NCBI RefSeq assembly: GCF_024199845.1
Contig: NZ_JANADO010000001.1
Coordinates: forward strand, 7,254,001 to 7,318,000
From: Bradyrhizobium sp. CCGB12
GTDB lineage: Bacteria > Pseudomonadota > Alphaproteobacteria > Rhizobiales > Xanthobacteraceae
DNA: 64,000 bases
Reading direction: 5' to 3'
Below are positions 4,049 through 58,018 of this stretch, piece by piece. The translations under genes and the position numbers were made by a program. The stretch's first letter is position 1. Each line of letters opens with the position of its first letter. The notes under the pieces are model-generated. The model was not told where the DNA came from, did not search any database, and saw nothing but the letters and a program-made list of their open reading frames with translations.

Positions 4049-4135
4049 CGTCATGCCCGGGCTTGTCCCGGGCATCCACGTCCTTTCCCGCCCGGAACCA
4101 GCGCGTGGATGGCCGGGACAAGCCCGGCCATGACG
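4049..4135. repeat. Palindromic repeat, CGTCATGCCCGGGCTTGTCCCGGGC family, copy 1
   Basis: Two hairpin-forming half elements, TGCCCGGG-CTTGT-CCCGGGCA and GGCCGGG-ACAAG-CCCGGCC, sit head to head around a short spacer containing CATCCACG / CGTGGATG. Related copies occur at 30403-30484 and 57929-58018, with solo halves at 24268-24300 and 38859-38881. Confidence 0.85.
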
Positions 4136-38858: not shown

Positions 38859-38881
38859 ATGGCCGGGCTTGTCCCGGCCAT
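38859..38881. repeat. Solo half of the GGCCGGGCTTGTCCCGGCC family
   Basis: ATGGCCGGG-CTTGT-CCCGGCCAT is one hairpin half of the element at 4049-4135, with no partner half. It follows the deacetylase stop by 34 bp. Confidence 0.7.
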
Positions 38882-39406: not shown

Positions 39407-41095
39407 TCAACACCCGCGCCTGTAGACCCGCAGCGTCACGTCCGGAAAACTCATGCTGTCGAGCAGGCAGACGTCCTTCTCAGCGTCCATGCGGGCGATG
39501 AGCTCATCACCGACGCGCGGTCCGACCAGCGTGTGATGGATCGAGCTCGAGACGACAAGAACGTTCGACTGCAAGAGCGCATCTCCCGTGGCCGCTGCCG
39601 TTCGATGCAACATCTCGCCGCGGACGACGAGGTTCATCCGCGACTGGGCTGCATACAATTGAATGGTCGTCGGCGTGACCGGGTAGGGACTCGAGAAGCC
39701 GACATAAAGCGGGCCGGACGGCGACGGCTTGACCTCGCGCAAAAGCAACCAGAGACGCTCGGTCGCCGCCCGGATGCTGTCCTGCTGCTGCGCGCTCAGC
39801 GGCGTTGCAACGCTGAGCTGACCGACCACGACGTGCCTGACGAAGAGCTGAAGCACGAAGGCGAGCACAAGCACCCGGCTCGCCGTGAGCAGATAGCGGC
39901 GGATGTCGGCACCAAGACCCGCGCACGCAAGCAATGCTTCGATGGACGCCAGGCTGGCGCAGCCATTGAGGACCATGGCGATGATGAACACGCCATAGAA
40001 CATTGCGCCGAAGAAGTAGGTCTTGATCTCCGCGACGGATGGAATCGCATAGGCGATCAGCACTGCCGCAAGCAGAACGACGGCGTCAAGCAGTGCAGTT
40101 TTGCCCTGAATGGCCGCGAGAACGAGACGCAGGAGCATCAAGGCGAGGCCAATGGCGAGCCAGTAGTGCAGGCCGAACTGGCCCTCTCCGCCGATGGAGA
40201 AGCGCAACAAGCCGGCCCAGAAGCTTTCGCCTGTGGTCCAGAGGTCGCGTTGACCCACGAACACATTGAAGATGTAGGTGACCGTCTCGACCAAGGCCGG
40301 GCCGAGCAGCACCGCAATGGTCGCGATCAGCGGCAGCACGAACCACGCGAACGCAGTGAATGCCTTGCTGAGCGATGGCCGAAATCCGCCCGCCTCGACG
40401 CAATCCGCAACCAGCCGGATTGCGAACGCGCTGCCGAGCAGAGCGAGCGCAGCCGGAAACGATGTCGGCTTGATGCTGGCGACCAGCGCGCAGGCGACGC
40501 CCAGACCGGCCAACGAGCGCACGCTGCGGCCGAGCACGCTGCGATAAACGATGGCCCCGGCGGCGAGACCGATGGCAAGACCCGAGGGCAAATCAGGACG
40601 CGCTTCCGTGACCGTGTGCCACAGCACCGGCACGCAAGCCGCGGTGACCAGACACGCTGCGACTTCGAGGACCGGTCGCCGCCGAGCCAGCCAGATGATC
40701 CCAAGCAGGAAGCCGAACACGGCCACGGCATGAACGAGATAGGGACCGACAAAGCTTCCGGGAAACAGCCAAAGCCCGGCGGCCGCCACCAGCGTCGAGA
40801 ACGGCGCATGGTGATGCAAGAGATCCCAGACGCTGGAAAAGATGCTCTCGTCTTTCGCTGCATTCGTCCAGCGCACGGCGTCGAGGAAATAGGCGACGTC
40901 GTCATAGAGCGGAGGAACGGACAGCCGGCCGTGCAGCTGTGAAGATTCAATTGATCGCGAAGCGACGATGGCAGTGATGGCAGCGGCGAGGATAACGAGA
41001 CCCGAGATCCGCAACCATGCTCGTCGATCTGTCGTCCCGGCCCCGTTGTCCTGACCCACCACTTGCCCCGTCACGCGCAGTTCTCGGCGGCGCAT
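39407..41095 (-). CDS. Large multi-pass membrane protein, GT-C glycosyltransferase-like
   Basis: A 562-residue protein with about ten or eleven membrane helices. Its first periplasmic loop holds SVPPLYDDVAYFLDA; the Asp-Asp followed by aromatic residues resembles the catalytic loop of GT-C glycosyltransferases that use polyprenyl-linked sugars. No other firm motif is present, so sugar transfer is inferred. The ATG at 41093-41095 starts MRRRELRV. The 5' 243 bp and the upstream 77 bp are duplicated at 51137-51456 near the tRNA-Thr gene, showing where the island inserted. The gene itself is complete. Confidence 0.72.
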   Translation of the reverse strand: MRRRELRVTGQVVGQDNGAGTTDRRAWLRISGLVILAAAITAIVASRSIESSQLHGRLSVPPLYDDVAYFLDAVRWTNAAKDESIFSSVWDLLHHHAPFSTLVAAAGLWLFPGSFVGPYLVHAVAVFGFLLGIIWLARRRPVLEVAACLVTAACVPVLWHTVTEARPDLPSGLAIGLAAGAIVYRSVLGRSVRSLAGLGVACALVASIKPTSFPAALALLGSAFAIRLVADCVEAGGFRPSLSKAFTAFAWFVLPLIATIAVLLGPALVETVTYIFNVFVGQRDLWTTGESFWAGLLRFSIGGEGQFGLHYWLAIGLALMLLRLVLAAIQGKTALLDAVVLLAAVLIAYAIPSVAEIKTYFFGAMFYGVFIIAMVLNGCASLASIEALLACAGLGADIRRYLLTASRVLVLAFVLQLFVRHVVVGQLSVATPLSAQQQDSIRAATERLWLLLREVKPSPSGPLYVGFSSPYPVTPTTIQLYAAQSRMNLVVRGEMLHRTAAATGDALLQSNVLVVSSSIHHTLVGPRVGDELIARMDAEKDVCLLDSMSFPDVTLRVYRRGC

Positions 41096-41172
41096 CGTAG
41101 TGGCACGAGCGCGAAGCGCAACGCGCTGGCAAGCCGGCTTCAGTGAATGGAGGCGCTGGTGCCGCAAGAGGG
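40853..41172. repeat. Left copy of 320-bp direct repeat flanking the island
   Basis: This 320-bp sequence is repeated at 51137-51456 in the same orientation with 7 mismatches and no indels (my alignment). It spans the first 81 codons of the GT-C-like gene, its 5' flank and the last 16 nt of a tRNA-Thr gene (41157-41172), where identity stops exactly. Confidence 0.92.
41157..41172 (-). other. Displaced 3' end of tRNA-Thr, putative attachment site (left)
   Basis: TGGTGCCGCAAGAGGG is the complement of the final 16 nt of tRNA-Thr(CGT), including the CCA. The rest of the tRNA is missing here and present 10.3 kb away, the pattern left when an element inserts at a tRNA 3' end. Confidence 0.85.
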
Positions 41173-41210
41173 CATCACATTTTGTTACTAAGCAATTATG
41201 CCGATGTAGT

Positions 41211-42461
41211 TTATCCAGTCCGCCGATCCAATCTCGGGAAAGCGGCGTCAGTCGTCAGACGGGACGCAAACCGCTCAGTCAACAACGGACCAAGAACCGA
41301 TGTTGCGAACACAAGTACAAGCACGACATTGAGCATTCGGTCGTCGAGCAATCGTTGACCGGTCGCGCTGAGCGTTTCGTGCGCGACCAGCGTCGCGGCA
41401 AGCGTAGCGGCGACTTGCGGCAGGGTGAGCGACCAGACCGTGAGTTGTTCATTCGGGCTGTAGCCGAACGCGCGACCAACGCCCCAAGCTGCCATCCACT
41501 TGCCGAGAAGCAAGGCACCGATGATACCGGCCACGAGCAGGAAATTGTTGAGAATCCCGTAAACAAAGCTAACTGGGTCGATCAGAAATCCGGTGACGAC
41601 GAAGAAGATCGGAATAAACAAAGATTTGGCCAGAAAATCCAGCTTCATGCTGGCCGGCGCGTTTTGTGCCGAGGCGTTGATGGCTAGTCCCGCAAGGAAC
41701 GCACCCACGATGCCTGGTAGCTGAATCGCATCCGCAAGCACACCCGCGATGGCGATGATGCTCAGCAGGAGAACGAAGTATGCGTCCTCCTCGTCTTCAA
41801 CCCGCTTGAGCACATAGGCACCGAGTCGGCTTAGGCCGAACAGAACCACGAGGATAAAGCCAGCGATCTCGGCCAGAAGAAGCGCCAGACCCGACGGCGA
41901 AAATCCGGTCGTGTAAATCGAGACGCAAATGGCGAACACCACGAGCGACAGAGTGTCTGACATCACCGTGGCGCCGACTGCTACTGTCACTGGCTCCAGC
42001 GTGCCAAGGCCGAGCCGGTTCACCGTGCTCAGCCCCAGCAGGGTATGGGAAGCCAGCAGCGATCCAATCACGATTGCCGGAATCGCGGCGTAGCCGAATG
42101 AGAGCCCAACGACGGTGCCAAGCAGGAGAGGAAGCGCTGTCGTGGCGATGCCAAGGGCAATGGATCGGTGGCGGGCACGCCGGAACTGCTCAAGATTGAT
42201 TTCCAGGCCGGCAAAAAACATCAACAGCAGTTGGCCCAATTCCGCCAGGAAATCCGCGATTGGCCGGACCTTGCCAAAGATGTCCAGCACATACGGCCCG
42301 ACCAAAACTCCGCATAGCAGCAGACCTACAGGTGCAGGAAGATGCACGCGACGGGAAAGATGGGGAATGATGACAATCATCACCATGCCTAACGCGAACT
42401 TTGCGAGCACCGGCAGGGTGAAGAGGTGATCCCGGAGGAAGCTGATCGTGTCAGACGGCAT
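41211..42461 (-). CDS. Cation:proton antiporter, CPA2 family
   Basis: A 416-residue membrane protein of the CPA2 (KefB/Na-H exchanger) type, with about twelve helices. Conserved segments are PVGLLLCGVLVGPYVL, FFAGLEINLEQF, and a central ATVMSDTLSLVVF carrying the Ser-Asp pair where CPA transporters bind ions. No regulatory RCK or TrkA-N domain follows, unlike KefB/C, so it is a short exchanger. It probably moves K or Na against protons. It is the left-most gene of the island, ending 38 bp from the left repeat. A SAM-start ATG at 42459-42461 is clear. Confidence 0.88.
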   Translation of the reverse strand: MPSDTISFLRDHLFTLPVLAKFALGMVMIVIIPHLSRRVHLPAPVGLLLCGVLVGPYVLDIFGKVRPIADFLAELGQLLLMFFAGLEINLEQFRRARHRSIALGIATTALPLLLGTVVGLSFGYAAIPAIVIGSLLASHTLLGLSTVNRLGLGTLEPVTVAVGATVMSDTLSLVVFAICVSIYTTGFSPSGLALLLAEIAGFILVVLFGLSRLGAYVLKRVEDEEDAYFVLLLSIIAIAGVLADAIQLPGIVGAFLAGLAINASAQNAPASMKLDFLAKSLFIPIFFVVTGFLIDPVSFVYGILNNFLLVAGIIGALLLGKWMAAWGVGRAFGYSPNEQLTVWSLTLPQVAATLAATLVAHETLSATGQRLLDDRMLNVVLVLVFATSVLGPLLTERFASRLTTDAAFPRLDRRTG

Positions 42462-42563
42462 ATTCCGACGGTGCCTGCGTTCTGCTTGTCACGCGTGATC
42501 GAGCGCCGCTGTTAGATGGATCGGCGGGCGCAGAAGAAGCGCCCGCCGGGTTCGCTTCGGTCG

Positions 42564-44351
42564 TCAGTCGCTGCGACCGGCCGTCTTCATGTTCTGAACT
42601 TGCCGCATGACTTGCTCCAGATTGTAGCTGGCCGGATCCTGCAGCGGCGGGAACTTGATGTAGGACTCGAGGTGCATCAACCAGAGCTGCTGGCCGATGG
42701 GCAGCAAGTTCCAGTCATAGACATAGGCGGTCGACGGAGCGGCGATCGCCCCGCCCATACCGAACAGCGTCTTCTGTTGCGCACCCACCGAGGTCTCGAA
42801 GGGGTCGCGCTTGATGTTGACGACCTGGGTCCAGGAGTAGGGCTGCACTCCCGAAACGAAGCCCGCCGGGTCGTCGGACACCATCGCGAAGTACATCTTC
42901 CAGTTCTTGTAGCGAACCGCCGACGGCGTCGTGCTGGAGTAGTACAGGAAGTGGTCGCGTGCCGACTTCTCAGACTTGCCGCTCAGATAGTCGGTCTGGT
43001 TGACGCCATCGAGCGTGGTCTTGACGATGCCGGGATACTCACCGGCCTCGATCCTTTGCTTCAGTGCGTCGCCCTTGGGCCCGCCGGCGATCTCGACGAG
43101 AGTCGGAAGCCAGTCGAGGGCGGCAAACATTTCGTTCTTCACCGTGCCGGGCTTGATGACGTTCGGCCACCGGATCACCATCGGGGCGCGCATGCCGCCC
43201 TCCCAGGTGCTCAACTTGCCGCCCTTGAACGGCGTGACGCCGCCGTCGGGGAAGGTAATCGTTTCGGCGCCGTTGTCGGTGGTGAAGACGACAATCGTGT
43301 TGTTGAGCTGGCCCATGTCTTCGAGCTTCTTGAGCACCACGCCAATGTTGTCGTCCATCTGCTTCATGCCAGCTTCATTGATGCCCCAATCCTTGCCGCC
43401 GGATTCACCCAACATGCCCAGGTACTTGTCATTCAGCACGGTCGTGATGTGCATGCGCGCCGGATTGTACCAGACGAAGAACGGCTTGTTGGTGCGGCGG
43501 GGGTCGTTGCGATCGAGGAAGTCGACGACCTTGGCCGAGATTTCCTCGTCGATACCCTTGGATCGCTCGAGAGTGAGAGGACCCTCGTCCTTGCACGTCA
43601 TGTTCTTGGCGCTTCCATCCGAGGACTTGCACGCGAGCATCGGACGCGGTGGCGTCAGGCAAACCGTGGTCTTGGCATCCACCGCGCCGGGAATCTCGGC
43701 TACGCCGGGGATCGGCGTGTTCCTGCATGGCGGCGCGACGGTCTGCTGGCTCGGGGTCTTGTTGATGTCAGGGAAGCTCACCCCCTGCATGGCATCGAGG
43801 TGATACAGGTAGCCCCAGTACTCTTGGAAACCATGCGCGGTCGGCAGCGAGTCGGTGTGGTCGCCGAGATGGTTCTTGCCGAACTCGCCGGTGTTGTAGC
43901 CGAGATCGAGCAGGAATCTGGCAAGGTGCGGTGTACCCGGCCGCAGGTAGGATGGGCTGCCGGGGATTTCCGGCAAGGTCATGCCGACGCGAACCGGCTG
44001 CATGCCGGTGATGAAGGCGGTGCGCCCGGCCGTGCAGCTCTGCTCAGCATAATAGTGCGTGAATATCGCGCCTTCGTTGCCGATGCGATCGATGTTGGGC
44101 GTCTCGCCAACCATCAGGCCGCGATGGTAGATGCTCGGCTGCATATAGCCGATGTCGTCGCCCATGATGAAGAGGATGTTGGGCTTCTGCTGTGGTTGCT
44201 GCGCCGCAGCCGGAGTGGTGGCTGGCCCGGATAGTGTCACCAACATGGTCGCGCCGAGCAGGGAAGCGCAATACCGGCGGTACCCGCCTCCTGTTGCTGG
44301 TGATGCTGGTGGAGTATCGCAAGGATGGTCGTGCAATCCGTGGTTAGACAT
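42564..44351 (-). CDS. Secreted sulfatase of the formylglycine type (arylsulfatase)
   Basis: A 595-residue sulfatase. A signal or anchor segment lies at about residues 28-50. The N-terminal metal-binding residues are D65-D66 in FIMGDDIGYM, and the cysteine to be converted to formylglycine is C106 in CTAGR, matching the C-x-(P/A)-x-R rule. Later landmarks NPARMHITT, TTDNGAE and FKGGKLSTWEGG fit sulfatases or phosphonate monoester hydrolases. It should act on sulfate esters in the periplasm. The ATG 44349-44351 follows GGGAGAG. Its activator gene lies 35 bp upstream on the same strand. Confidence 0.92.
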   Translation of the reverse strand: MSNHGLHDHPCDTPPASPATGGGYRRYCASLLGATMLVTLSGPATTPAAAQQPQQKPNILFIMGDDIGYMQPSIYHRGLMVGETPNIDRIGNEGAIFTHYYAEQSCTAGRTAFITGMQPVRVGMTLPEIPGSPSYLRPGTPHLARFLLDLGYNTGEFGKNHLGDHTDSLPTAHGFQEYWGYLYHLDAMQGVSFPDINKTPSQQTVAPPCRNTPIPGVAEIPGAVDAKTTVCLTPPRPMLACKSSDGSAKNMTCKDEGPLTLERSKGIDEEISAKVVDFLDRNDPRRTNKPFFVWYNPARMHITTVLNDKYLGMLGESGGKDWGINEAGMKQMDDNIGVVLKKLEDMGQLNNTIVVFTTDNGAETITFPDGGVTPFKGGKLSTWEGGMRAPMVIRWPNVIKPGTVKNEMFAALDWLPTLVEIAGGPKGDALKQRIEAGEYPGIVKTTLDGVNQTDYLSGKSEKSARDHFLYYSSTTPSAVRYKNWKMYFAMVSDDPAGFVSGVQPYSWTQVVNIKRDPFETSVGAQQKTLFGMGGAIAAPSTAYVYDWNLLPIGQQLWLMHLESYIKFPPLQDPASYNLEQVMRQVQNMKTAGRSD

Positions 44352-44386
44352 GGCGTCGCTCTCCCATTGTTGATGGTTGATATGTG

Positions 44387-45379
44387 TCAGTGCCGCGACC
44401 GTCTGATGCATCGAAAGCCAAGATGGCTCGTGGAGGTGTCAACCGGCTCCGCGTGTCGGGCTGCCGGCCGGTAGCGTCGGCAGTAGTTCGGTGCGCACAA
44501 ATGCGAGCCACCCTTGATGACCTTTCGTGGAATTTTCACATTGGTTATTCTGGGATCGTGGCTGTCGGCTTCACTGCCGCCCCGCGGGTTGCGCGGAATG
44601 CAGCACGTCTTCGTTGCATCGGCTTGATGCTTCGGCGCATACCAGTCGGCGGTCCATTCCCAGACGTTGCCGATCATGTCATGCAGCCCGTAGCCGTTTG
44701 GCGGAAAGGCGGTCACCGGGGAAGTGCGTTCGAAACCATCGGCATTGGTGTTCTCGCGGGGAAAATCGCCCTGCCAGGTGTTCGCCATGTGACGGCCGTT
44801 CGGAGTGAACTCATTGCCCCAGGCAAACTCTGTGTCCTCGAGGCCGGCGCGCGCCGCAAATTCCCACTCCGCCTCGGTCGGAATATCTTTGCCAGCCCAT
44901 TTGGCGTAGGCGAGCACGTCGTTGAACGCCACATGCACGACGGGATGATCGTCGAGGTCCCTGATGTTGCTCCTCGGTCCGTACGGATGCCGCCAATCCG
45001 CGCCCCTGGCAAAGGTCCACCACTGACTGAAGTCGCGCAAACTCACCACGTGCTTGGGGGGCGAGAACATCAGCGAGCCCGCATAGATCATGTGCGGAAG
45101 GATCCCGGGATAGTCCTTCGGGTTGGGTGCAATTTCGGCCAATGTGACGTGACCCGTGGCCTCGACGAACTCCCTGAATTGCCGGTTCGTCACGGGATGA
45201 CGATCCATCCAGAATCCGTCCACGGTGACGCAATGAGCAGGTGCTTCCTCCGGATAATGTTTGTCCGACCCCATGCGAAAAGTGCCGCCGGGTATCCAGA
45301 CCGGGTCATCGATCTGCGGAAACCCTTCACGAGCAGCGGCGTCCGGCAGGAAGGTTGTCGAGGGGAAAAGAGCGCTCAT
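44387..45379 (-). CDS. Formylglycine-generating enzyme (sulfatase activator)
   Basis: A 330-residue FGE-sulfatase family protein that oxidises the sulfatase active-site Cys to formylglycine using copper and oxygen. The catalytic cysteine pair appears in GSHLCAPNYCRRYRPAAR, spaced exactly as C336/C341 in human FGE, and the ending SHLGFRCIR is diagnostic; this separates it from FGE-like proteins lacking the cysteines. The N-terminal motif WIPGGTFRMGSDKHYPEEAP is the family opening. An ATG at 45377-45379 with GGAAGG upstream is preferred over a GTG at 45430. It lies directly upstream of the sulfatase, so the pair is a working unit. Confidence 0.93.
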   Translation of the reverse strand: MSALFPSTTFLPDAAAREGFPQIDDPVWIPGGTFRMGSDKHYPEEAPAHCVTVDGFWMDRHPVTNRQFREFVEATGHVTLAEIAPNPKDYPGILPHMIYAGSLMFSPPKHVVSLRDFSQWWTFARGADWRHPYGPRSNIRDLDDHPVVHVAFNDVLAYAKWAGKDIPTEAEWEFAARAGLEDTEFAWGNEFTPNGRHMANTWQGDFPRENTNADGFERTSPVTAFPPNGYGLHDMIGNVWEWTADWYAPKHQADATKTCCIPRNPRGGSEADSHDPRITNVKIPRKVIKGGSHLCAPNYCRRYRPAARHAEPVDTSTSHLGFRCIRRSRH

Positions 45380-45457
45380 CGCAAGCATTGCCTTCCGGTG
45401 GACCGCGGAAATGCGATCTAGCCGGGGCACGCTACGCAGGAGCCATGTCGCGTTCTA

Positions 45458-45473
45458 TTGGACCGTGGTCCAA
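45458..45473. promoter_or_regulatory. Perfect palindrome, candidate operator between divergent genes
   Basis: TTGGACC-GT-GGTCCAA has 7-bp arms with no mismatch. It lies between the divergent activator/sulfatase unit and the small secreted gene at 45554, about 80 bp from each start. A shorter TTGGACCAA occurs at 51062-51070, 61 bp before the Cys-repeat gene. Confidence 0.55.
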
Positions 45474-45553
45474 CATCAAGTGGAGCGTCGCTCTGATATT
45501 AAACGAGGACCCGGAGGCAATCCCCACCTTCAACAAAGCAACGCGAGCCTCTC

Positions 45554-46030
45554 ATGAGAATGAGCGTCGCCGAGGACCGGATCGAACGAGCAAATTGTCG
45601 AAACCTGCTTGGGCGACGGTTGATTCCCCCCTTGTTTGCGATGTTTTTCCTCCTTTGGATTGCAGGTCCGGCATGCGCGCAACAACCGCCTGCGGCGACG
45701 GTCGTCGGACCCGCTGAATCTGCATTCGAGAGGTTGCCGGGCCGCTGGGTCCGTTTGCAGGGAGGTTACGTGATCACCATCCGGGCAGTTGGCGCGGACG
45801 GAAAACTCGATGCGAGCTACGCAAATCCGACTCTTCTTCCCTTTCATGTCGCCGTGGCAAGCCGCGACGGTAACGCGATCAAGTTGCGCTTCGAACTACG
45901 CGCCGGCGGCTACAATGGCTCCTCCTATGTGCTCAATTACGACGCGGCCAACGACCGGCTGACCGGCGTCTTCGATCAAGTGGTTGCCAAGCAGAAGTTC
46001 GACGTCGTATTCGTTCGCTTTGAGCCATGA
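45554..46030 (+). CDS. Hypothetical secreted protein
   Basis: A 158-residue protein with an N-terminal membrane segment (PPLFAMFFLLWIAGPACAQ) that looks like a signal peptide. The remaining 110 residues form a beta-rich domain: LPGRWVRLQGGYVITIRAVG, then LRFELRAGGYNGSSYVLNYD and a closing QKFDVVFVRFEP. The repeated beta-strand look suggests a lipocalin- or avidin-like barrel, but no family is recognised. It is divergent from the sulfatase activator and precedes the sensor kinase. Function is unknown. Confidence 0.68.
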   Translation: MRMSVAEDRIERANCRNLLGRRLIPPLFAMFFLLWIAGPACAQQPPAATVVGPAESAFERLPGRWVRLQGGYVITIRAVGADGKLDASYANPTLLPFHVAVASRDGNAIKLRFELRAGGYNGSSYVLNYDAANDRLTGVFDQVVAKQKFDVVFVRFEP

Positions 46031-46315
46031 CGGCTGCATGTGCGGCGCGTTGCCCGCCGGTACCCACTTCCGCCATACGCCTGGGTCCGCGGGCTCTGGG
46101 GGCGGGACGCGAGTCAGCGACCCCCGCTGAATTGAACCAGGTCGCACATCGATTGGTCCAAAATCCCGCATCGGTATCGCAGGGTGACGGCCGGAAAAAT
46201 GTGGCAGATCGATCCTGGCGCGGATATGCGGCGAGTGCCATTGCGTGCAGACTCGACAGCCGCCAACCTGATGTTTTATCGTGGGTCTAGCGTTCTTCGG
46301 ACCGGATCGAACCTC

Positions 46316-48604
46316 GTGAGAGTTTACGATCGCGTTAGTGGGCCGAATGCCAGACACGCGCGCGTTGTGCGTGGCGCATTTCTATGGATCGTCGTCGTAT
46401 TTTTGCTGGAGAGCACTGCACTGCGTGCCAATGATGTGCCGCAGCGCGTGCTGGTCCTTCACTCATTCAACCAGACTTTTCCAGCCAACGCGATCATCTC
46501 GGAGGCTGTCCGCCAGCGGCTGCTCGATCGATCTCCGCGGTACATCGAAATCGAAGTCGAGTATCTCGACCTGGCACGACGCCCGGATGAGGCGCACGCT
46601 CAGCGCATGGCCAATTTCCTCCGCGAGAAATACGCCAATGTGCACATTGATTTGGCGGTGGTGATCGGCTTCTCAGGAATTCCTTTCATCCAAAAGTATC
46701 GAGACGTGGCCGGGCCGGGCGTCCCCATAGTATTTTCAGACATCACGCGCTCCACGTACGAACGCATGAAATTGCCGCCCGATATCACCGGGATGATCAG
46801 CGAGTTCTACCCGGAGAAGACCCTAGCACTCGCAGAAGGCCTTCAGCCCGAGGCGCGTCGGCTTGTGGTGATCGGAGGGAGCGACAGCCTTGACCGTCGC
46901 TGGCGGGAAGCGGCGCGCAAAGCCATTGAGGCTAGCAATTCGAAACTTGAGACGGTTTACTGGTTTGATCTCAGCTACGATGCGCTGCTGGCAGACGTAT
47001 CTCGGCTACCGAGCGATACGATCGTGATGCTTCTGACCTTCTTTGCGGACGGCGACGGCAAGCGCTTCGTTCCGAGGGATGTCGCCAATGCCGTTGCGAA
47101 AGCTTCCGCCGCGCCGGTCTATGGCTTCTTTGAAACCTATCTCGGTGCGGGAATCGTTGGAGCATACACTTATTCGTACGAAGCTCTTGGAGCTGCAGCC
47201 GCCGACATGGCTCTCGAGATTCTTTCGGGCGCTGACGTTAGCAAGGTTCCTCCGCGAGCCAATCCTTTGCCGACGTTCCGTGTCGACGCGAGAGCCTTGG
47301 ACCGGTGGGGGTTGAAGGAGCCCAACCTGCCGCCCAACAGCGTTGTCCTGTTCAAGGAACCCAGTGTTTGGGATCAGCATCGCAACCTGGTGCTGGCGAC
47401 GGCGGTCGTCGTCGGAATACAGTCATTGGTCGTCAGTGCGCTGCTGTTTCAACGGCGCAGGCGCAGGCAAGCCGAAATCTCGCTCAAGGAAAGCGAGGAG
47501 CGAATGACCTTCACCGCCGCTTCCGCGAATGTAGGGCTGTGGCAGTTCGATCGAGGGACCAATGAGCTATGGGCTACCGAACATTGTCGCGCGATGTTCG
47601 GGCTCGCCAGCGACGTGCCTCTCACGCGCGATACGTTTGTGAATGCAATCCACCCCGACGATCGCGGCGTGGCCGTCGACGCGATCCGGCAGATGAGGAA
47701 CGCCGGTGAATCCTCTGTGGTCCATGTTCGAATTGCCCTTCCCGACAACCGAGTACGCTGGGTGAGTATCCGGGCGCGCTCGCGCGCGAACCATCACGGG
47801 GCATCAAATCAGTATAGCGGGATCTTCGTCGATATCACCGAACAGAAAGCCGCCGAGTCCGAAGCCGAGTTGCAGCGACAGGAAGTAGCGCATCTGATGC
47901 GAGTGTCAGTTCTCGGCGAACTCTCCGGCGCTATCGCCCATGAAGTCAATCAGCCATTGACGGCAATTCTGTCGAACGCGCAGGCGGCGCTCTATTTGCT
48001 GGATCAGGAGACGCCTAATCTCGCCGAGATTCGCGACGCGTTGCAGGATATCGTGCGTGAGGACGATCGCGCCGGCGAAGTTGTGCATCGGCTCCGTAAC
48101 CTGCTCAAGAAGGGCGAGACCAGATCCGAGTTGGTCGACGTCAACGACTTGGTAGATTTAACCACCAGTCTGATTCGAAGCGAGTTGGTCAGCCGCCGCA
48201 TCACTGTCGAGACCAAGCTCGCGAGCGGTCTACCGGCGGTGTTGGGGGATTCCATACAGTTGCAGCAAGTGCTGCTCAATCTGATGATGAACGCGATGGA
48301 TGCGATGGCTTCGACGCCGTTGGCGCTGCGGCTGATCACCATCTCTACCCGCGCGACACCGGCAGGAACGATCGAGGTGTTGGTGAAAGACTATGGGCCC
48401 GGAATCAAACCGGCGCAAGGAGGCCGACTGTTCGAACCGTTCTTCACCACCAAGGATCACGGGCTCGGTCTCGGGTTGACGATCTGCTCGACCATTGTTG
48501 AAGCGCATGGCGGCAGGATTGCGCTATCAAACGACCCCGCCGATGGCGGCGCTATTGCCGGATTTTCGCTGCCCGTGCAGGAACTGTCGGTGGCTGCGCA
48601 ATGA
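46316..48604 (+). CDS. Sensor histidine kinase with ABC substrate-binding sensor domain
   Basis: A roughly 762-residue sensor kinase. After a signal or anchor segment, about 300 residues match the ABC substrate-binding (PF04392-like) fold, opening QRVLVLHSFNQTFPANAIIS. A membrane helix follows at about 356-378, then a PAS domain, and a histidine kinase core with H542 in GAIAHEVNQPL and an ATPase part with LMMNAMDAM and GLGLGLTI. This arrangement couples a periplasmic solute-binding module directly to phosphotransfer. The start is uncertain: a GTG at 46316 places the signal segment correctly; earlier in-frame codons from 46184 are possible. It overlaps the next gene by 4 bp. Confidence 0.85.
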   Translation: MRVYDRVSGPNARHARVVRGAFLWIVVVFLLESTALRANDVPQRVLVLHSFNQTFPANAIISEAVRQRLLDRSPRYIEIEVEYLDLARRPDEAHAQRMANFLREKYANVHIDLAVVIGFSGIPFIQKYRDVAGPGVPIVFSDITRSTYERMKLPPDITGMISEFYPEKTLALAEGLQPEARRLVVIGGSDSLDRRWREAARKAIEASNSKLETVYWFDLSYDALLADVSRLPSDTIVMLLTFFADGDGKRFVPRDVANAVAKASAAPVYGFFETYLGAGIVGAYTYSYEALGAAAADMALEILSGADVSKVPPRANPLPTFRVDARALDRWGLKEPNLPPNSVVLFKEPSVWDQHRNLVLATAVVVGIQSLVVSALLFQRRRRRQAEISLKESEERMTFTAASANVGLWQFDRGTNELWATEHCRAMFGLASDVPLTRDTFVNAIHPDDRGVAVDAIRQMRNAGESSVVHVRIALPDNRVRWVSIRARSRANHHGASNQYSGIFVDITEQKAAESEAELQRQEVAHLMRVSVLGELSGAIAHEVNQPLTAILSNAQAALYLLDQETPNLAEIRDALQDIVREDDRAGEVVHRLRNLLKKGETRSELVDVNDLVDLTTSLIRSELVSRRITVETKLASGLPAVLGDSIQLQQVLLNLMMNAMDAMASTPLALRLITISTRATPAGTIEVLVKDYGPGIKPAQGGRLFEPFFTTKDHGLGLGLTICSTIVEAHGGRIALSNDPADGGAIAGFSLPVQELSVAAQ

Positions 48605-49227
48605 CGAACACCAGGTTCACCGTCTTCCTAGTCGATGACGATGCCAGCGTGCTGACGGCATTGTCGCGGCTGTTGCGCACGCGCGGCTACGAGGTCCGGG
48701 CGTTCGCCTCGCCGCATGCTTTTCTCGCAGAACATGATGCGTCGATACCCGGTTGCGCCGTGTTCGACGTTTCGATGCCAGATCTCGATGGCCTGGAACT
48801 GCAACAGGAGCTGACTACAGGAGGTTCGCAGCGGCCCATTATTTTTCTCACCGGGAGGGGGGATATCCCGACGAGTGTCCGTGCCATGCGCGCCGGCGCG
48901 ATCGATTTTCTGACCAAGCCTGTTAGAGACGTGGACCTGCTGGCGGCCATTGCGCGCGCCGAAAAGGACGACGTCAGCACTCGCAACCGCAATGCCGAGC
49001 TGCAATCGATCAACGCCCGGCTCGCACTCCTGACGCCGCGCGAACGCGAAGTAATGACTCACGTCATCACCGGACGCCTCAACAAGCAAATCGCCGGCGA
49101 CTTGGGAACGGTGGAGAAGACGGTCAAGGTCCATCGTGGGCGGGTGATGGAGAAAATGGGCGTGCGCTCCGTCGCGGATCTCGTCCGGCTGGCTGAAAAA
49201 GCCGGCATTTCCGGCCACGGCAGGTAA
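48601..49227 (+). CDS. FixJ-family response regulator with LuxR-type output
   Basis: A 208-residue regulator. The receiver shows DDD at residues 12-14 (VDDDASVL), phospho-acceptor D56 (CAVFDVSMPD), and FLTKPVRD. The output is a FixJ-type helix-turn-helix near residues 140-205 with LTPREREVMTHVITGRLNKQIAGDLG and KVHRGRVMEKM. It overlaps the sensor kinase gene by 4 bp (ATGA), so the two form a translationally coupled pair. The target promoters are unknown; the 45458 palindrome is a candidate. Confidence 0.93.
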   Translation: MTNTRFTVFLVDDDASVLTALSRLLRTRGYEVRAFASPHAFLAEHDASIPGCAVFDVSMPDLDGLELQQELTTGGSQRPIIFLTGRGDIPTSVRAMRAGAIDFLTKPVRDVDLLAAIARAEKDDVSTRNRNAELQSINARLALLTPREREVMTHVITGRLNKQIAGDLGTVEKTVKVHRGRVMEKMGVRSVADLVRLAEKAGISGHGR

Positions 49228-49301
49228 AAAGGGGATGCGCGGTCTTGTTGGCCCTATGGCCAACTCGACAATCCGCCGCGACCACGCCGATAGTCCAGCG
49301 C

Positions 49302-49685
49302 ATGGCGCAAGCTTTGCCACGGATCGCAATTGTGGACGACGACCCATCGGTGCTGAAGGCATTGGCGAGGCTGCTAAGGGCGCGTGCGTTCGAAGCCAGC
49401 ACCTACACGTCCGCGCGCGAGTTTCTCGGTGCACTCCATGAGGGCCTGCCGGAGTGCCTGATTGTCGATTTGCAAATGCCGGACATGACCGGTCTCGAAC
49501 TTCAGCGGCATCTCACCAGCAGCGGGTTGCGAATTCCGACCATCGTGATCACCGCCCACAATGAAGCCGGGGCGCGCGAACGCTGTGAATCCGCAGGTGC
49601 CGCGGCATTTCTCTCAAAGCCGCTGCAGGATACCTCGCTGCTTGCAGCAATCGGAGCAGCAACGGGGCGCGCCATTCAAAACTAA
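49302..49685 (+). CDS. Second FixJ-like single-domain receiver
   Basis: A 127-residue receiver with VDDDPSVLKALARLL, phospho-acceptor D56 (LIVDLQMPDM) and FLSKPLQD. It resembles the receiver of the preceding regulator closely but has no output domain. An ATG at 49302 opens the conserved part; a TTG at 49245 gives a longer frame. It lies 74 bp downstream and probably belongs to the same operon, where it could compete for phosphate or bind another partner. Confidence 0.87.
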   Translation: MAQALPRIAIVDDDPSVLKALARLLRARAFEASTYTSAREFLGALHEGLPECLIVDLQMPDMTGLELQRHLTSSGLRIPTIVITAHNEAGARERCESAGAAAFLSKPLQDTSLLAAIGAATGRAIQN

Positions 49686-49762
49686 GACGGGTCGCGGTTC
49701 GCAGCATCCTGCTTTAGATGAGCAACGGCGAGCTGCCTGCTACTCCACTGCAATCGGGGCGA

Positions 49763-50494
49763 CTACTTTACCTCTTCCAGCACTTGGACCGGCACAGAAA
49801 CAACGTTGGGCATTCCCCACGCCGTCGAGAATCGTATTTCGCGAGATGCCAATTTCAAACTCTGGCTTAATACATTCGTAATGACGGCCGCGACGCGACC
49901 GTTGCAATCGACCACCGGTGCCCCCGAGGCTCCGTGATCAATGACAAGGCGGTTCTCCCCTTCGTACATTTCCAACAGGACCATGCCGGCGAGCTTCCCC
50001 TCCTCTCCGAACCGAACGAAGCGTCCTCCCACGGGACGAGAGCTGCCAGCCGGATAGGCGAGCGTCATGACCTGCTCCTCTGGCACGAGCGGTTCCTTTC
50101 GAATAGCGACGCTCCGCGCGTCGGAAGCGGCGCGTTGGAGTTCGATTACGGCCAGTTTTTCTGGCGTCCCTCCCACCCGGCGTTGGATGCGTGCACCGAT
50201 TAGCTCGCTGCCATCTCCGGCTGCGATCTCGAGCGGCTTCCACACCGTCGTGGAGAGTTTCATCGCTGTCGCGACGTGTTCGGCCGTGACCATAATGGTT
50301 GGAGAGAGGAACCAACCGGTTCCCTGGACGCCGATGATGCCCGGATGCGCATCGCGCTCCCTCTCATCGTAATTCTGCACAATACTGGCGGTTGAGCGTG
50401 CGAGCAGCGCGGGATCGACACATGCTGCATTGGCCCAAGTGCTTGCCAGCACACCGCAAAGAATAAGCAATCGACAAACGGTAGACCTATGCAT
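49763..50494 (-). CDS. Trypsin-like serine-protease fold, possibly non-catalytic
   Basis: A 243-residue secreted protein with a signal peptide (ending STWANAA). The chymotrypsin-fold His H73 is in VTAEHVA, and the serine S190 in DHGASGAPVVD matches the GxSG elbow. The usual Asp of xDLAxL is Lys (K113) in PEKLAVIEL, so the catalytic triad looks incomplete. It could still be a weak protease or a binding protein. It lies on the minus strand, convergent with the receiver genes and upstream of the Cys-repeat gene. Confidence 0.75.
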   Translation of the reverse strand: MHRSTVCRLLILCGVLASTWANAACVDPALLARSTASIVQNYDERERDAHPGIIGVQGTGWFLSPTIMVTAEHVATAMKLSTTVWKPLEIAAGDGSELIGARIQRRVGGTPEKLAVIELQRAASDARSVAIRKEPLVPEEQVMTLAYPAGSSRPVGGRFVRFGEEGKLAGMVLLEMYEGENRLVIDHGASGAPVVDCNGRVAAVITNVLSQSLKLASREIRFSTAWGMPNVVSVPVQVLEEVK

Positions 50495-50650
50495 CGCAGT
50501 GAAGCCCGCAGCCCGACCACAGGGGAAGGGGAAGGCGAACTCTGCAACTTGGCAATAGGACTCACCGGCTTATCCCGAGGCCTTTCTCCGGAACTCGGGA
50601 TTTTTCGCGCGCACTGTCACGCGTTTGTCACAGCGACTTGCGCCCTCATA

Positions 50651-50670
50651 CCTGGCGCCTTAGCGCCAGG
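50651..50670. other. Perfect hairpin spanning the stop codon of the Cys-repeat gene
   Basis: CCTGGCGC-CTTA-GCGCCAGG has 8-bp arms and a 4-base loop, and the TAA stop of the minus-strand gene lies in the loop. No T-run follows, so it may stabilise the transcript end rather than act as a classic terminator. Confidence 0.6.
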
Positions 50671-51001
50671 ATGCCGGTTCGCAAGGCGGTTGATTCCACG
50701 GACCTCCGGCATACTGGCCAACGTCTGGAGCCCGGACGCAGTGAACGATGCGGGAGGAGGGGACGACTGCGCCGTTCTTGTCGCGCCACGCCGCTCTGGC
50801 GCCTGAGCCCCGGGTTGCCGGTTCGCAAGGCGGTTGATTCCACGGACCTCCGGCATACTGGCCAACGTCTGGAGCCCGGATGCAGTGAACGACGCGGGAG
50901 GAATGGACGGCTGCGCCGCTTTTGTCGTACCACGCAGCCGTGGCCGGACTAGCGTACATGGCCGCGGCGGCGATCAATCCGACTGAAACGAGCTTGCTCA
51001 T
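50660..51001 (-). CDS. Secreted protein of two tandem Cys repeats
   Basis: A 113-residue exported protein. After a signal peptide (ending SPATAA) come two near-identical units of about 48 residues, each containing AWxDKxGAxVxSSRxVHCxR and ending GPWNQPPCEPA, each with two cysteines, two tryptophans and an invariant RAPDVGQYAGGP. At DNA level the unit is repeated with a 144-bp period (50672-50758 and 50816-50902, 2 mismatches in 87 bp), so the duplication is recent. I do not recognise the family. Function is unknown; it sits at the right end of the island. Confidence 0.78.
   Translation of the reverse strand: MSKLVSVGLIAAAAMYASPATAAWYDKSGAAVHSSRVVHCIRAPDVGQYAGGPWNQPPCEPATRGSGARAAWRDKNGAVVPSSRIVHCVRAPDVGQYAGGPWNQPPCEPASWR
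50672..50902. repeat. 144-bp-period tandem duplication inside the Cys-repeat gene
   Basis: Units 50672-50758 and 50816-50902 are 87 bp with 2 mismatches; the period of 144 bp equals 48 codons, so the reading frame and domain are kept. The flanking stretches are also similar but less so. Confidence 0.85.
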
Positions 51002-51034
51002 TTGCGCGTCTCCATATGCTGTCAGTGCGATTGA

Positions 51035-51379
51035 CTATTTACCGCAGACCAGTGGGAGTAAATTGGACCAAGGGGAAACGACGGTTTGTGCTTTCCAGCT
51101 CGTCCGCTGAGAGTCACAAGCAGACGTTCCAGACTTTTTCGCTGCATTCGTCCAGCGCACGGCGTCGAGGAAATAGGCGACGTCGTCATAGAGCGGAGGA
51201 ACGGACAGCCGGCCGTGCAGCTGTGAGGATTCAATTGATCGCGAAGCGACGATGGCGGTGATGGCAGCGGCGAGGATGACGAGACCCGAGATCCGCAACC
51301 ATGCTCGTCGATCTGTTGTCCCGGCCCCGTTGTCCTGACCCACCACTTGCCCCGTCACGCGCAGTTCTCGGCGGCGCAT
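51035..51379 (-). pseudogene. 5' fragment of the GT-C-like gene in the right island repeat
   Basis: Bases 51137-51379 repeat the first 81 codons of the gene at 39407-41095, then the match ends and the frame continues through unrelated sequence to a stop at 51035. The predicted 114-residue product would be a truncated, single-helix protein. It is best read as a relic carried by the island, not as a gene. Confidence 0.85.
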
Positions 51380-51456
51380 CGTAGTGGCACAAGCGCGAAG
51401 CGCAACGCGCAGGCAAGCCGGCTTCAGTGAATGGAGGTGCTGGTGCCGCAAGAGGG
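51137..51456. repeat. Right copy of 320-bp direct repeat flanking the island
   Basis: Same sequence as 40853-41172 (7 of 320 mismatches). Its end (51441-51456) is the true 3' end of the intact tRNA-Thr. At its left edge, homology begins within a TTTCGCTG stretch at 51137. Confidence 0.92.
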
Positions 51457-51516
51457 ATTCGAACCCCCGACCCCGTCATTACGAATGACGTGCTCTACCA
51501 ACTGAGCTATTGCGGC
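51441..51516 (-). tRNA. tRNA-Thr, anticodon CGT
   Basis: Reads on the minus strand as a complete cloverleaf: acceptor GCCGCAA with TTGCGGC, D arm GCTC-AGTTGGTA-GAGC, anticodon stem CGTCA/TGACG with loop TTCGTAA (anticodon CGT), variable loop GGGTC, T arm GGGGG-TTCGAAT-CCCTC (one G-T pair), CCA encoded. It reads ACG threonine codons. Its last 16 nt are repeated at 41157-41172. Confidence 0.95.
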
Positions 51517-51616: not shown

Positions 51617-53413
51617 TCACGCGCCCCACCGGGACCAGAATCCGCGCCAACCGCCAGCCTGGGCCTTTGGCGTGCCGATTTGTTCCGTAAATTCGTCGCT
51701 CGGGCCCTCGTCATCGATCCCGGGATCATCCGGCGCGCGGACGATGGGGATCACGGCGGGGATGGGGGCGGGCCCGGGTTTGCCGAGGTCGGCACGGGTC
51801 CGGAATACCGGCGTTGCCGCCGGTGGCGATGATTCGGCGGGCGCGGGCGCCGGATCAGCCGGCTCAGTGGGCGTGACCGTCGGCTCTTCCTTGGCAACTT
51901 CCTTGGGAGTTTCTTTGGGAACCTCCTCGGGAGCTTCCTTGGCAGCTTCCTTGGCCTCAGGGGGCGAATTGTCCTGGGCGGCCGGCACCGGGGTCGGGGC
52001 CGTCACCGGCGGTTCCACCGGACTTTCGCTTGGAGGCGCCATCACCCGTTTCGGCGGCGGGGCCGCCAGCATGGCTTCCTCGAAAGCCGAGGATTCGATC
52101 GTGGTGCCCCTGTCGGAAGGAAGGCTCGCGACCGGCGTCTGCCACTGGAAGGCATCGAGGCGGCCGGTGACGGGGGAGACCGGACGCCAGCGGTCGCTGA
52201 CATAGCCGTCGGCGGTCCAGGCCGGATCGTGGCGAGCGCGCACCGCGCGCAAGGTCCAGGCGCGGGCACGGCCGCCGTCGCCGTGCTCGGTGCGCTCGAT
52301 CTCGGCCATCAGCAGCGCGACGCGCTGGGTTGGATCGTTGACATAAGGCGCGAGCGCCGCGCGCGCGCGGGCGAACTCGGAGGCATCGATCGCCGCGCGG
52401 GCGATCGCGAACTGGCCCTCGTTATGACCGGGCTTGTCGGCAGAGATCTTGGCTGCAAGCGTCTCGACCCGCTGCAAGCGCTGCCGCGCGGAATCGCCGA
52501 GCTTCACATGCGCGTAGGCATCCGCGAGATCGGGATGCGGATTGGCGAGCCAGGCGGCCTCGACCAGCTTCATGGCGCGGCGCACCTGATGCGCCTCGCT
52601 CTCGAACTTTGCGGCGAGCACCGCGGCCGGCACCAGGGTCGGCGCGAGCTTGACCGCCTCCATCACGTTTTCGCGCGCGACGTCGCGATCCACGGTTTCC
52701 GATTCCAGCGCGCGCGCCGTGAGCAGGACGCCGCGCTGCCGGCGATAGGTCTGCTTGTCGATCAGGCCGGCGGACAGATTCGAATCGAGGATCGCAAGCG
52801 CGCCGCTCCAATCGCCGCGCGCGCAGCGGAAGCCGAGCACCGCATGCGAGGCCCAGGTCGAGGACGGCGACAGCTTGATGGCTTCCTCCGCGATCATCAC
52901 GGCGCCGACCGCATCGTCGGCGCGCTGCGCCTCGATGAACAGGCCGCGCAGACCGAGCAGGCGCGTGTCCTCGCGCTCGGCCATGACGCGGAAGACGCGC
53001 TGCGCCTCGTCGCGATTGCCTTCGAGCTGCGCCGACTGCGCGTGCAGCAGCAGCGCGAGCGGATCGTTCGACGCATGCCGCCGCGCGGCATCCGAATGCC
53101 GACGGGCGAGGGCAGTGTCGCCGTGACCGATCGCGAGCAGGCCTTGGGTGATGGCGTGGCGGCCGCGGGCGTGGCGCTTCTCATGACGACGGCGACGCAA
53201 GCGCCCCGGCGTGCGCCAGATCATGGTCAGGATGCTCCAGACCAGCACGGTCGCGGCTGCGAAGATGCCGAGCCCAAGCACGAACCCGGAAAAGGTCGTT
53301 GTGGCACGCAGGCCGCCCCAGGTCAGGACCAGATCGCCGGGCTGATCGGCAACCCAGGCTCCGCCGGCCGCCGCCAATGCGATCAGAATGAGGAAGAGGA
53401 CGATGCGAAGCAT
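51617..53413 (-). CDS. hemY: HemY-like haem biosynthesis protein with TPR repeats
   Basis: A 598-residue protein of the HemY family: two N-terminal membrane helices (residues 1-20 and about 40-65) followed by TPR-like helical repeats and a Pro/Glu-rich C-terminal stretch (PPVTAPTPVPAAQDNSPPE). HemY in this sense is a haem-pathway membrane protein of uncertain biochemical role, not the oxygen-dependent protoporphyrinogen oxidase also called HemY. It is followed by a mitofilin-like gene and hemD on the same strand, the typical alphaproteobacterial arrangement. The start at ATG 53411-53413 fits. Confidence 0.87.
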   Translation of the reverse strand: MLRIVLFLILIALAAAGGAWVADQPGDLVLTWGGLRATTTFSGFVLGLGIFAAATVLVWSILTMIWRTPGRLRRRRHEKRHARGRHAITQGLLAIGHGDTALARRHSDAARRHASNDPLALLLHAQSAQLEGNRDEAQRVFRVMAEREDTRLLGLRGLFIEAQRADDAVGAVMIAEEAIKLSPSSTWASHAVLGFRCARGDWSGALAILDSNLSAGLIDKQTYRRQRGVLLTARALESETVDRDVARENVMEAVKLAPTLVPAAVLAAKFESEAHQVRRAMKLVEAAWLANPHPDLADAYAHVKLGDSARQRLQRVETLAAKISADKPGHNEGQFAIARAAIDASEFARARAALAPYVNDPTQRVALLMAEIERTEHGDGGRARAWTLRAVRARHDPAWTADGYVSDRWRPVSPVTGRLDAFQWQTPVASLPSDRGTTIESSAFEEAMLAAPPPKRVMAPPSESPVEPPVTAPTPVPAAQDNSPPEAKEAAKEAPEEVPKETPKEVAKEEPTVTPTEPADPAPAPAESSPPAATPVFRTRADLGKPGPAPIPAVIPIVRAPDDPGIDDEGPSDEFTEQIGTPKAQAGGWRGFWSRWGA

Positions 53414-57928: not shown

Positions 57929-58018
57929 CGTCATGCTCGCGCTTGTCGCGGGCATCCACGTCTTGATATTGAACTGATAGCAGAGACGTGGATGGCCGGG
58001 ACAAGCCCGGCCATGACG
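57929..58018. repeat. Palindromic repeat, CGTCATGCTCGCGCTTGTCGCGGGC family, copy 3
   Basis: A diverged copy of the element at 4049: the left hairpin has changed to GCTCGCG-CTTGT-CGCGGGC while the right hairpin GGCCGGG-ACAAG-CCCGGCC is intact. Confidence 0.8.

Follow-up and report, generated by a model that had tools for sequence, protein, structure and literature searches.

We analysed a 64,000-bp stretch (the window) of the 9.43-Mb, two-contig genome of Bradyrhizobium sp. CCGB12, at C1:7,254,001-7,318,000, in which a block of accessory genes lies beside the gene of tRNA-Thr(CGT). From the sequence we put the probability at about 0.9 that this block is a truncated integrase element of a family that targets the 3' end of this tRNA gene, with the attR core, the attR arm and the cargo present and the end that carries the attL arm and the integrase missing. 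The place of the attL arm and the integrase is occupied by 304 bp of the flank of an empty site, namely the spacer and the start of a neighbouring gene (GT-C in a preliminary description of this window, from which the label is taken; its protein has no Pfam family at E 0.01).

The block is bounded by two direct copies of a 320-bp segment (Table 1), which blastn aligned as a single ungapped match with 97.8% identity, seven mismatches and no indels (E 3e-158), confirming the pair reported in the preliminary description. Also as described there, the left copy contains only the last 16 nt of the tRNA gene and continues into the intact GT-C gene, and the right copy adjoins the whole and intact tRNA-Thr on the minus strand and ends about 80 codons into GT-C. 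Removal of 10,284 bp through recombination of the repeats would leave tRNA-Thr beside GT-C, as had been proposed, and this layout was seen in relatives. The locus combines two structures: a displaced 3' fragment at one end with an intact tRNA at the other, as in tRNA islands, and a direct repeat of a homologous segment around the insert, as in single-crossover (Campbell-type) integration. The right join (51136/51137) sits in an A-rich run. Among the genus genomes, the best other match to the tRNA plus repeat was 83% identical.

Element classes at tRNA-Thr(CGT)

Two classes of element in Bradyrhizobium share this one tRNA target and differ in core and in integrase position; the names class A and class B were coined in this analysis. 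Class B is recognised by a 15-16 nt tRNA remnant at the far end, preceded by a conserved arm. An exact search with the 16-nt remnant gave second copies in genomes G110, G222 and G231. In G231, a 415-aa integrase (Arm-DNA-bind_3, Phage_int_M and Phage_integrase domains) is encoded 186 bp beyond the tRNA; the element also carries a MobA/MobL relaxase. When 265 genus genomes were searched with this tyrosine integrase, the ten best hits (its own included, 58-100% identical), which represent one clade, all lay 168-190 bp beyond a tRNA-Thr(CGT), the spacing being read from the match coordinates. An attL arm similar to CAGCCGTTCTCCACCGTTC (up to 4 mismatches) follows the tRNA in eight of these ten genomes, G178 and G101 being without it, and the motif is also present once in the class A locus L077.

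Five of the ten integrase genomes (G231, G049, G073, G021 and G217) yielded an attR. A search with the arm pattern showed none in G099 (about 59 kb), G006 (20 kb) or G178 (17 kb), and none was found in G202 (2.2 kb) and G101 (7.4 kb), where the search covered the core alone and allowed at most 2 substitutions. The five class B elements with both ends seen measure about 15-27 kb; that of G110 measures 3.5 kb and has no integrase. The same 1-nt deletion (TTGCG-CACCA for TTGCGGCACCA) was observed in four of six class B attR remnants, at L225 10660, L232 1232, L233 18837 and L235 15314 (minus strand); some genomes may appear both as a named locus and under a G handle.

Class A elements carry a 46-nt tRNA remnant, CACTTAG or a similar sequence after the tRNA, and an ORF (open reading frame) with an Arm-DNA-binding domain near the distal remnant. 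Such remnants were found at 4.8 kb in G129 (Pfam-checked), 13.9 kb in G058 and 14.1 kb in G106. The last 28 nt of the tRNA matched with at most one mismatch in 189 of 265 genomes; two same-strand matches were present in 8 of the 189 (in G068 on different contigs), and the CCGB12 genome has two on opposite strands.

A 50-bp 3' half of tRNA-Thr(CGT), 98% identical, lies 247 kb from the tRNA gene (L091 9150-9199; G000:C1:7552149-7552198; also in L003), and a serine recombinase ORF was found about 6 kb beyond it. The ORF between the two is presumably methylase-like, judging by its sequence. This half gene looks as if left behind by a further tRNA-Thr element, and an inversion may have displaced it. 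It was rejected as the partner of the island, being on the opposite strand and matching at neither flank.

Attachment site at the left junction

The 25-nt arm before the 16-nt core of CCGB12 is identical to that of G110 at 18 of 25 positions, and none of 20,000 random placements was as good; G110 and G231 agree at 15 of 25 (1 of 20,000 as good). The 21-mer of arm plus core, TGTGATGCCCTCTTGCGGCAC, was found exactly in only two of 265 genomes, CCGB12 and G110, with 2-mismatch matches in eight more. Used as a pattern, the G110 arm plus part of the core detected four more sites, all at far ends of integrase-bearing elements (G049, G073, G021 and G217). A profile was then built from the arms of six other genomes, leaving out G222 with its dissimilar arm. 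This profile, in which CCGB12 had no part, gave its highest score (16.1 bits, the next 13.7) to 41173-41197 when both strands of the window, 127,950 positions in all, were scanned, and none of 1,095,135 positions scored as high on one strand of 60 other regions.

An attachment arm common to integrase-bearing elements at the same site thus stands beside the remnant, with the reservation that the arms came partly from a pattern search. Because the 16-nt remnant corresponds to the attachment core of an integrase family and has the arm of that family beside it, site-specific integration very probably occurred here, and the left junction looks like an authentic class B attR. The preliminary description had treated the remnant as the place where homology ends and overlooked that it is an attachment core with a family arm.

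The missing tRNA-proximal end

The attL motif is absent from the island in the expected orientation at up to 5 mismatches, and the sequence directly after the intact tRNA is the GT-C spacer, not an arm of the element. We found no PF00589 match in the window; of ten in the genome at E <= 0.001, the nearest are at C1:7,167,265 and 7,666,450, some 86 kb before the left edge of the window and 348 kb beyond its right edge. No integrase of the G231 type was detected in the genome at E 1e-60. The earlier statement that the island lacks an integrase is borne out, no integrase domain being found in it. As the integrase gene is missing, we file the block as a truncated derivative and not as a member of the tRNA-targeted island class; very probably it is a shortened island and does not represent an island type that has no integrase. 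The 320-bp repeat is the scar at the end opposite to attR.

Variability of the site

Comparison with relatives for an empty site had been suggested, and eight named relatives, all Bradyrhizobium found through the GT-C gene, were available for it. Seven of the eight are empty, with tRNA-Thr(CGT) directly before GT-C. The exception is L009, with the GT-C start 3.7 kb from tRNA-Thr; a different 3.6-kb insert (L009 6331-9940), which contains a LuxR-like ORF and a 229-aa ORF duplicated in tandem, separates the two genes, and no tRNA remnant of at least 12 nt was found at this insert. In 21 of 265 genus genomes, among the matches listed, the tRNA-GT-C query aligns without a break from base 1 of the tRNA past position 357.

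We also collected 69 tRNA regions (the eight named, G129 and 60 under other handles; some may be the same genome, and L078, the same genome as L009, was excluded). GT-C starts within 130 bp of the tRNA in 11 of them, is displaced in two, is reduced to a C-terminal remnant in one and was not found in 55, where the fetched stretch was mostly 16-17 kb. These counts indicate that the downstream side of tRNA-Thr is very variable. On the upstream side, the hemY-like gene is kept in 68 of 69 regions. The C-terminal remnant, in L105 (G252), comprises only the last 100 residues of GT-C, 91 bp after tRNA-Thr, and suggests a deletion at the same hotspot.

In none of the 69 regions was the sequence of the first 400 bp after the tRNA repeated on the same strand over at least 100 bp, the longest match being 77 bp. 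A protein search with the truncated GT-C fragment, limited to similar lengths, returned the copy of the same genome (99%) and seven proteins at 53-81%, none with this junction.

Divergence of the two flank copies

Both copies share indels in the spacer that were not seen in the other aligned sequences, among the rows listed; therefore the two copies are sister alleles. Polarised on 15 relatives, the differences look derived in the left copy at 46, 66, 179, 200 and 230 and in the right copy at 19 and 140, unanimously at 19 and 230 only and at the other sites by the majority and the nearest relatives. The four coding differences, counted from the presumed GT-C start (ATG at 41095, in an ORF open to 41167), are all in third positions and leave the protein unchanged. 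The 2.2% divergence and the silent changes fit two alleles held apart in two strains, as far as seven sites can tell; the same sites could also have come from an old event within the strain. The mismatches had been taken as evidence against a recent local duplication: this alone is excluded by them, and an old in-strain event could give the same differences. Dating the event or separating the routes by the seven mismatches was attempted and rejected, the sites being too few.

Origin of the flank copy

The flank copy was probably made by recombination with DNA of a close relative, with one homologous and one illegitimate end. First, a class B island would have inserted at the 3' end of tRNA-Thr(CGT) by its tyrosine integrase, with 15-16 nt of the tRNA kept at its far end. 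A piece of the chromosome of a close relative, starting in the island interior, spanning attR and including the first 304 bp of spacer and GT-C, would then have reached a cell whose site was empty. Illegitimate joining of the ends of this piece would have made a circle, and a single RecA crossover in the 320 bp would have integrated the circle. We infer this single-crossover route from the structure and adopt it tentatively, at rather less than even odds. A single step would then account for the absence of the integrase, for the direct repeat and for the divergence at strain level. In Escherichia coli, according to the part of the report cited here, single crossovers of recircularised fragments accounted for duplications in 56 of 60 clones, of 109-950 bp in the 14 that were sequenced (PMC3240628). 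The preliminary description had proposed that about 300 bp of chromosomal flank came from the locus of a related strain or from an imprecise event, which fits, although the attR core and arm were missed. We infer further that the block can no longer be excised by an enzyme of its own and could be lost through RecA between the repeats.

Several observations weigh against this account. The arm of CCGB12 agrees with that of G231 at only 9 of 25 positions (1,505 of 20,000 random placements as good), and the 16-nt remnant of G222 has no arm similarity (6 of 25 with CCGB12). Four of the six arms in the profile had themselves been found with the G110 arm as the pattern. No relative was found with this cargo and an intact tRNA-proximal end, and none of six class B loci tested shares cargo with this island. 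One strain of the species was compared, so that donor and recipient alleles are not separable. Finally, homology-facilitated illegitimate recombination (HFIR) would leave the same structure.

By HFIR, the whole island would have been resident, and donor DNA from an empty site (hemY, tRNA-Thr and the GT-C start) would have recombined by homology on the hemY and tRNA side; its other end would have been joined illegitimately to a point within the island, so that attL and the integrase were lost and 304 bp of donor flank remained. The structural evidence is the same as for the single-crossover route, and donor DNA of this kind should be at hand, because empty sites are common. HFIR has been proposed by Rocha, in the portion of the article cited, as a remover of mobility genes and an aid to domestication (PMC4795794), and a comparable displacement was proposed for type VI secretion system arrays of Vibrio cholerae in the cited portion of another (PMC5361080). 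On the other side, the E. coli work, in its cited part, gives HFIR as 100 to 100,000 times rarer than homologous recombination, and most clones there were single-crossover duplications instead (PMC3240628). HFIR also expects 3-10 bp of microhomology at the junction, where the original island sequence is gone. We therefore regard it as a possible but less probable route, and the single crossover is slightly preferred. With about the same modest likelihood, the locus might be the fossil of a half-completed cure of the genome, in which DNA of an empty-site strain removed the integrase end by one-sided homology and the cargo was frozen as a property of the host.

An event within the strain appears unlikely: the island might have been excised aberrantly together with 304 bp of GT-C and then re-inserted, or it might have undergone unequal exchange with a sister chromosome whose site was empty, and the seven differences would have arisen later. 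The same unusual spacer in both copies agrees with this, as they could be copies of one local allele. However, five of the seven changes look derived in the left copy, which is intact and under selection, and two in the broken right copy, the reverse of the decay of a dead copy; still, the 5:2 split gives only P = 0.045 under an assumed 2:1 expectation and 0.23 under 1:1, and at four of the seven sites the polarity follows the majority of relatives without being unanimous. Insertion by end-joining at a staggered break, which would duplicate 320 bp of the target without an integrase, does predict a direct repeat around non-homologous DNA but is very improbable; it leaves unexplained an edge that falls on an attachment core with a matching arm, and the arm profile strongly disfavours it. 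A class A element that lost its integrase can practically be dismissed: class A exists at the same tRNA (G129, G058 and G106), but only 16 nt of tRNA are found here, with no CACTTAG-like start after the tRNA and no Arm-domain ORF, and the 304-bp flank copy would be unexplained.

Gene content

The cargo between the repeats comprises 9,964 bp with 60.0% GC, against 63.4-67.7% in all sampled blocks of equal size elsewhere in the window, a comparison with the flanks that had been recommended earlier. Its genes are listed in Table 1.

Table 1. Features of the block and its borders in the window
Feature	Position	Strand	Evidence
GT-C-like gene, full intact copy	39407..41095	-	ORF; orthologues beside tRNA-Thr in relatives
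Left repeat: 16 nt of tRNA-Thr end, spacer, GT-C start	40853..41172	-	blastn, alignment
16-nt tRNA remnant, probable attR core	41157..41172	-	alignment, arm profile
Probable attR arm, 16-nt-core (class B) family	41173..41197	-	identity with G110 arm, six-genome profile
Sodium/proton (CPA2-like) antiporter, 416 aa	41211..42461	-	PF00999
Arylsulfatase, 615 aa	42564..44411	-	PF00884
Formylglycine-generating-enzyme-like (FGE) protein (sulfatase-modifying), 347 aa	44387..45430	-	PF03781
158-aa protein, no Pfam family	45554..46030	+	74-77% DNA identity beside related clusters in L082, L087
PAS sensor histidine kinase	46184..48604	+	ORF; HATPase_c, HisKA, PAS
Response regulator with LuxR-type domain	48601..49227	+	PF00072, PF00196
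Single-domain response regulator	49245..49685	+	PF00072
Trypsin-like protease, 243 aa	49763..50494	-	PF13365
113-aa protein, no Pfam family, internal tandem repeat	50660..51001	-	ORF; orthologues at unlinked places in other genomes
Cargo up to illegitimate-looking junction with GT-C fragment, no attL arm	51002..51136	-	
Right repeat: last 16 nt of intact tRNA, spacer, about 80 GT-C codons	51137..51456	-	
Intact tRNA-Thr(CGT)	51441..51516	-	
hemY-like core gene upstream of tRNA	51617..53413	-	ORF; label from preliminary description

The cargo is ordinary Bradyrhizobium accessory DNA. Some part of it is matched in 255 of 265 genus genomes, often in short parts only. A second sulfatase/FGE module, 79% identical, is present in the same genome (C1:2,520,358-2,523,075), and in several genomes the module lies near a related kinase and regulators. 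The antiporter is 100% identical to cluster P0009 (2 sequences, longest contig 2,916 bp), the next best being 94%. From the family names, we might guess a role in sulfate-ester scavenging under two-component control. A plasmid origin was considered and rejected: matches were found in 6 of 72,556 plasmid records, with no more than 16% of the cargo covered, and no plasmid donor was seen.

The gene of the 113-aa protein contains a 140-bp tandem repeat (50652-50791 and 50796-50935, 90.7%), and its internal repeat is present in most close homologues (eleven loci). In G041 only a 52% copy of this gene lies near the sulfatase cluster, and a close homologue is about 350 kb away from it. The idea that the cargo ends stand side by side there, as in a circular permutation, was dropped because the close homologues of the gene are elsewhere. 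Outside the block, a perfect 23-bp sequence was observed at 38859-38881, 4109-4131 and 57992-58014, two of the copies inverted relative to the first, and it is possibly a dispersed intergenic repeat.

Comparison with known systems

In our literature search we recognised no publication on this tRNA-Thr site; what looks new here is the left junction as the attR of an integrase element. Conversion of islands made by an integrase to an integrase-free state has so far mostly been inferred. Here an attachment site can still be recognised at one end and a scar measured at the other, so that the route could be tested with a few sister genomes. Should the half-completed cure be real and recur elsewhere, island domestication would be recognisable from a duplicated flank, hundreds of bases long, facing an orphan attR.

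With the Islander-type tRNA islands formed by tyrosine integrases, as given in the part of the source cited (PMC4383910), the block shares the intact tRNA, the displaced 3' fragment with an arm and the variable occupancy. It differs from them in that the integrase and the tRNA-proximal arm are replaced by the flank of an empty site, and in 320-bp repeats compared with a 16-nt core. With the class B elements of G231, G049, G073, G021, G217 and G110 it has in common the tRNA, the 15-16 nt core and the attR arm, but it has no attL arm, no integrase and no cargo common with those compared.

The products of single crossover and of HFIR in E. coli, as far as the cited part of that report goes (PMC3240628), likewise have one homologous and one illegitimate join, and in those of single crossover the homologous locus is duplicated over a few hundred bp; they were laboratory plasmid events, whereas the present structure was read from one genome and its direction is not fixed. 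Merodiploids obtained by transformation (PMC3784515, cited in part) are a more distant parallel. The site also resembles hotspots where variable genes lie beside conserved genes and an integrase is often absent; an integrase is encoded in fewer than half (45%) of hotspots by the cited part of one survey (PMC5635113). Unlike such integrase-poor hotspots, this site is the target of an integrase, and a clean double crossover in both flanks would leave no duplicated flank, whereas here 320 bp are duplicated.

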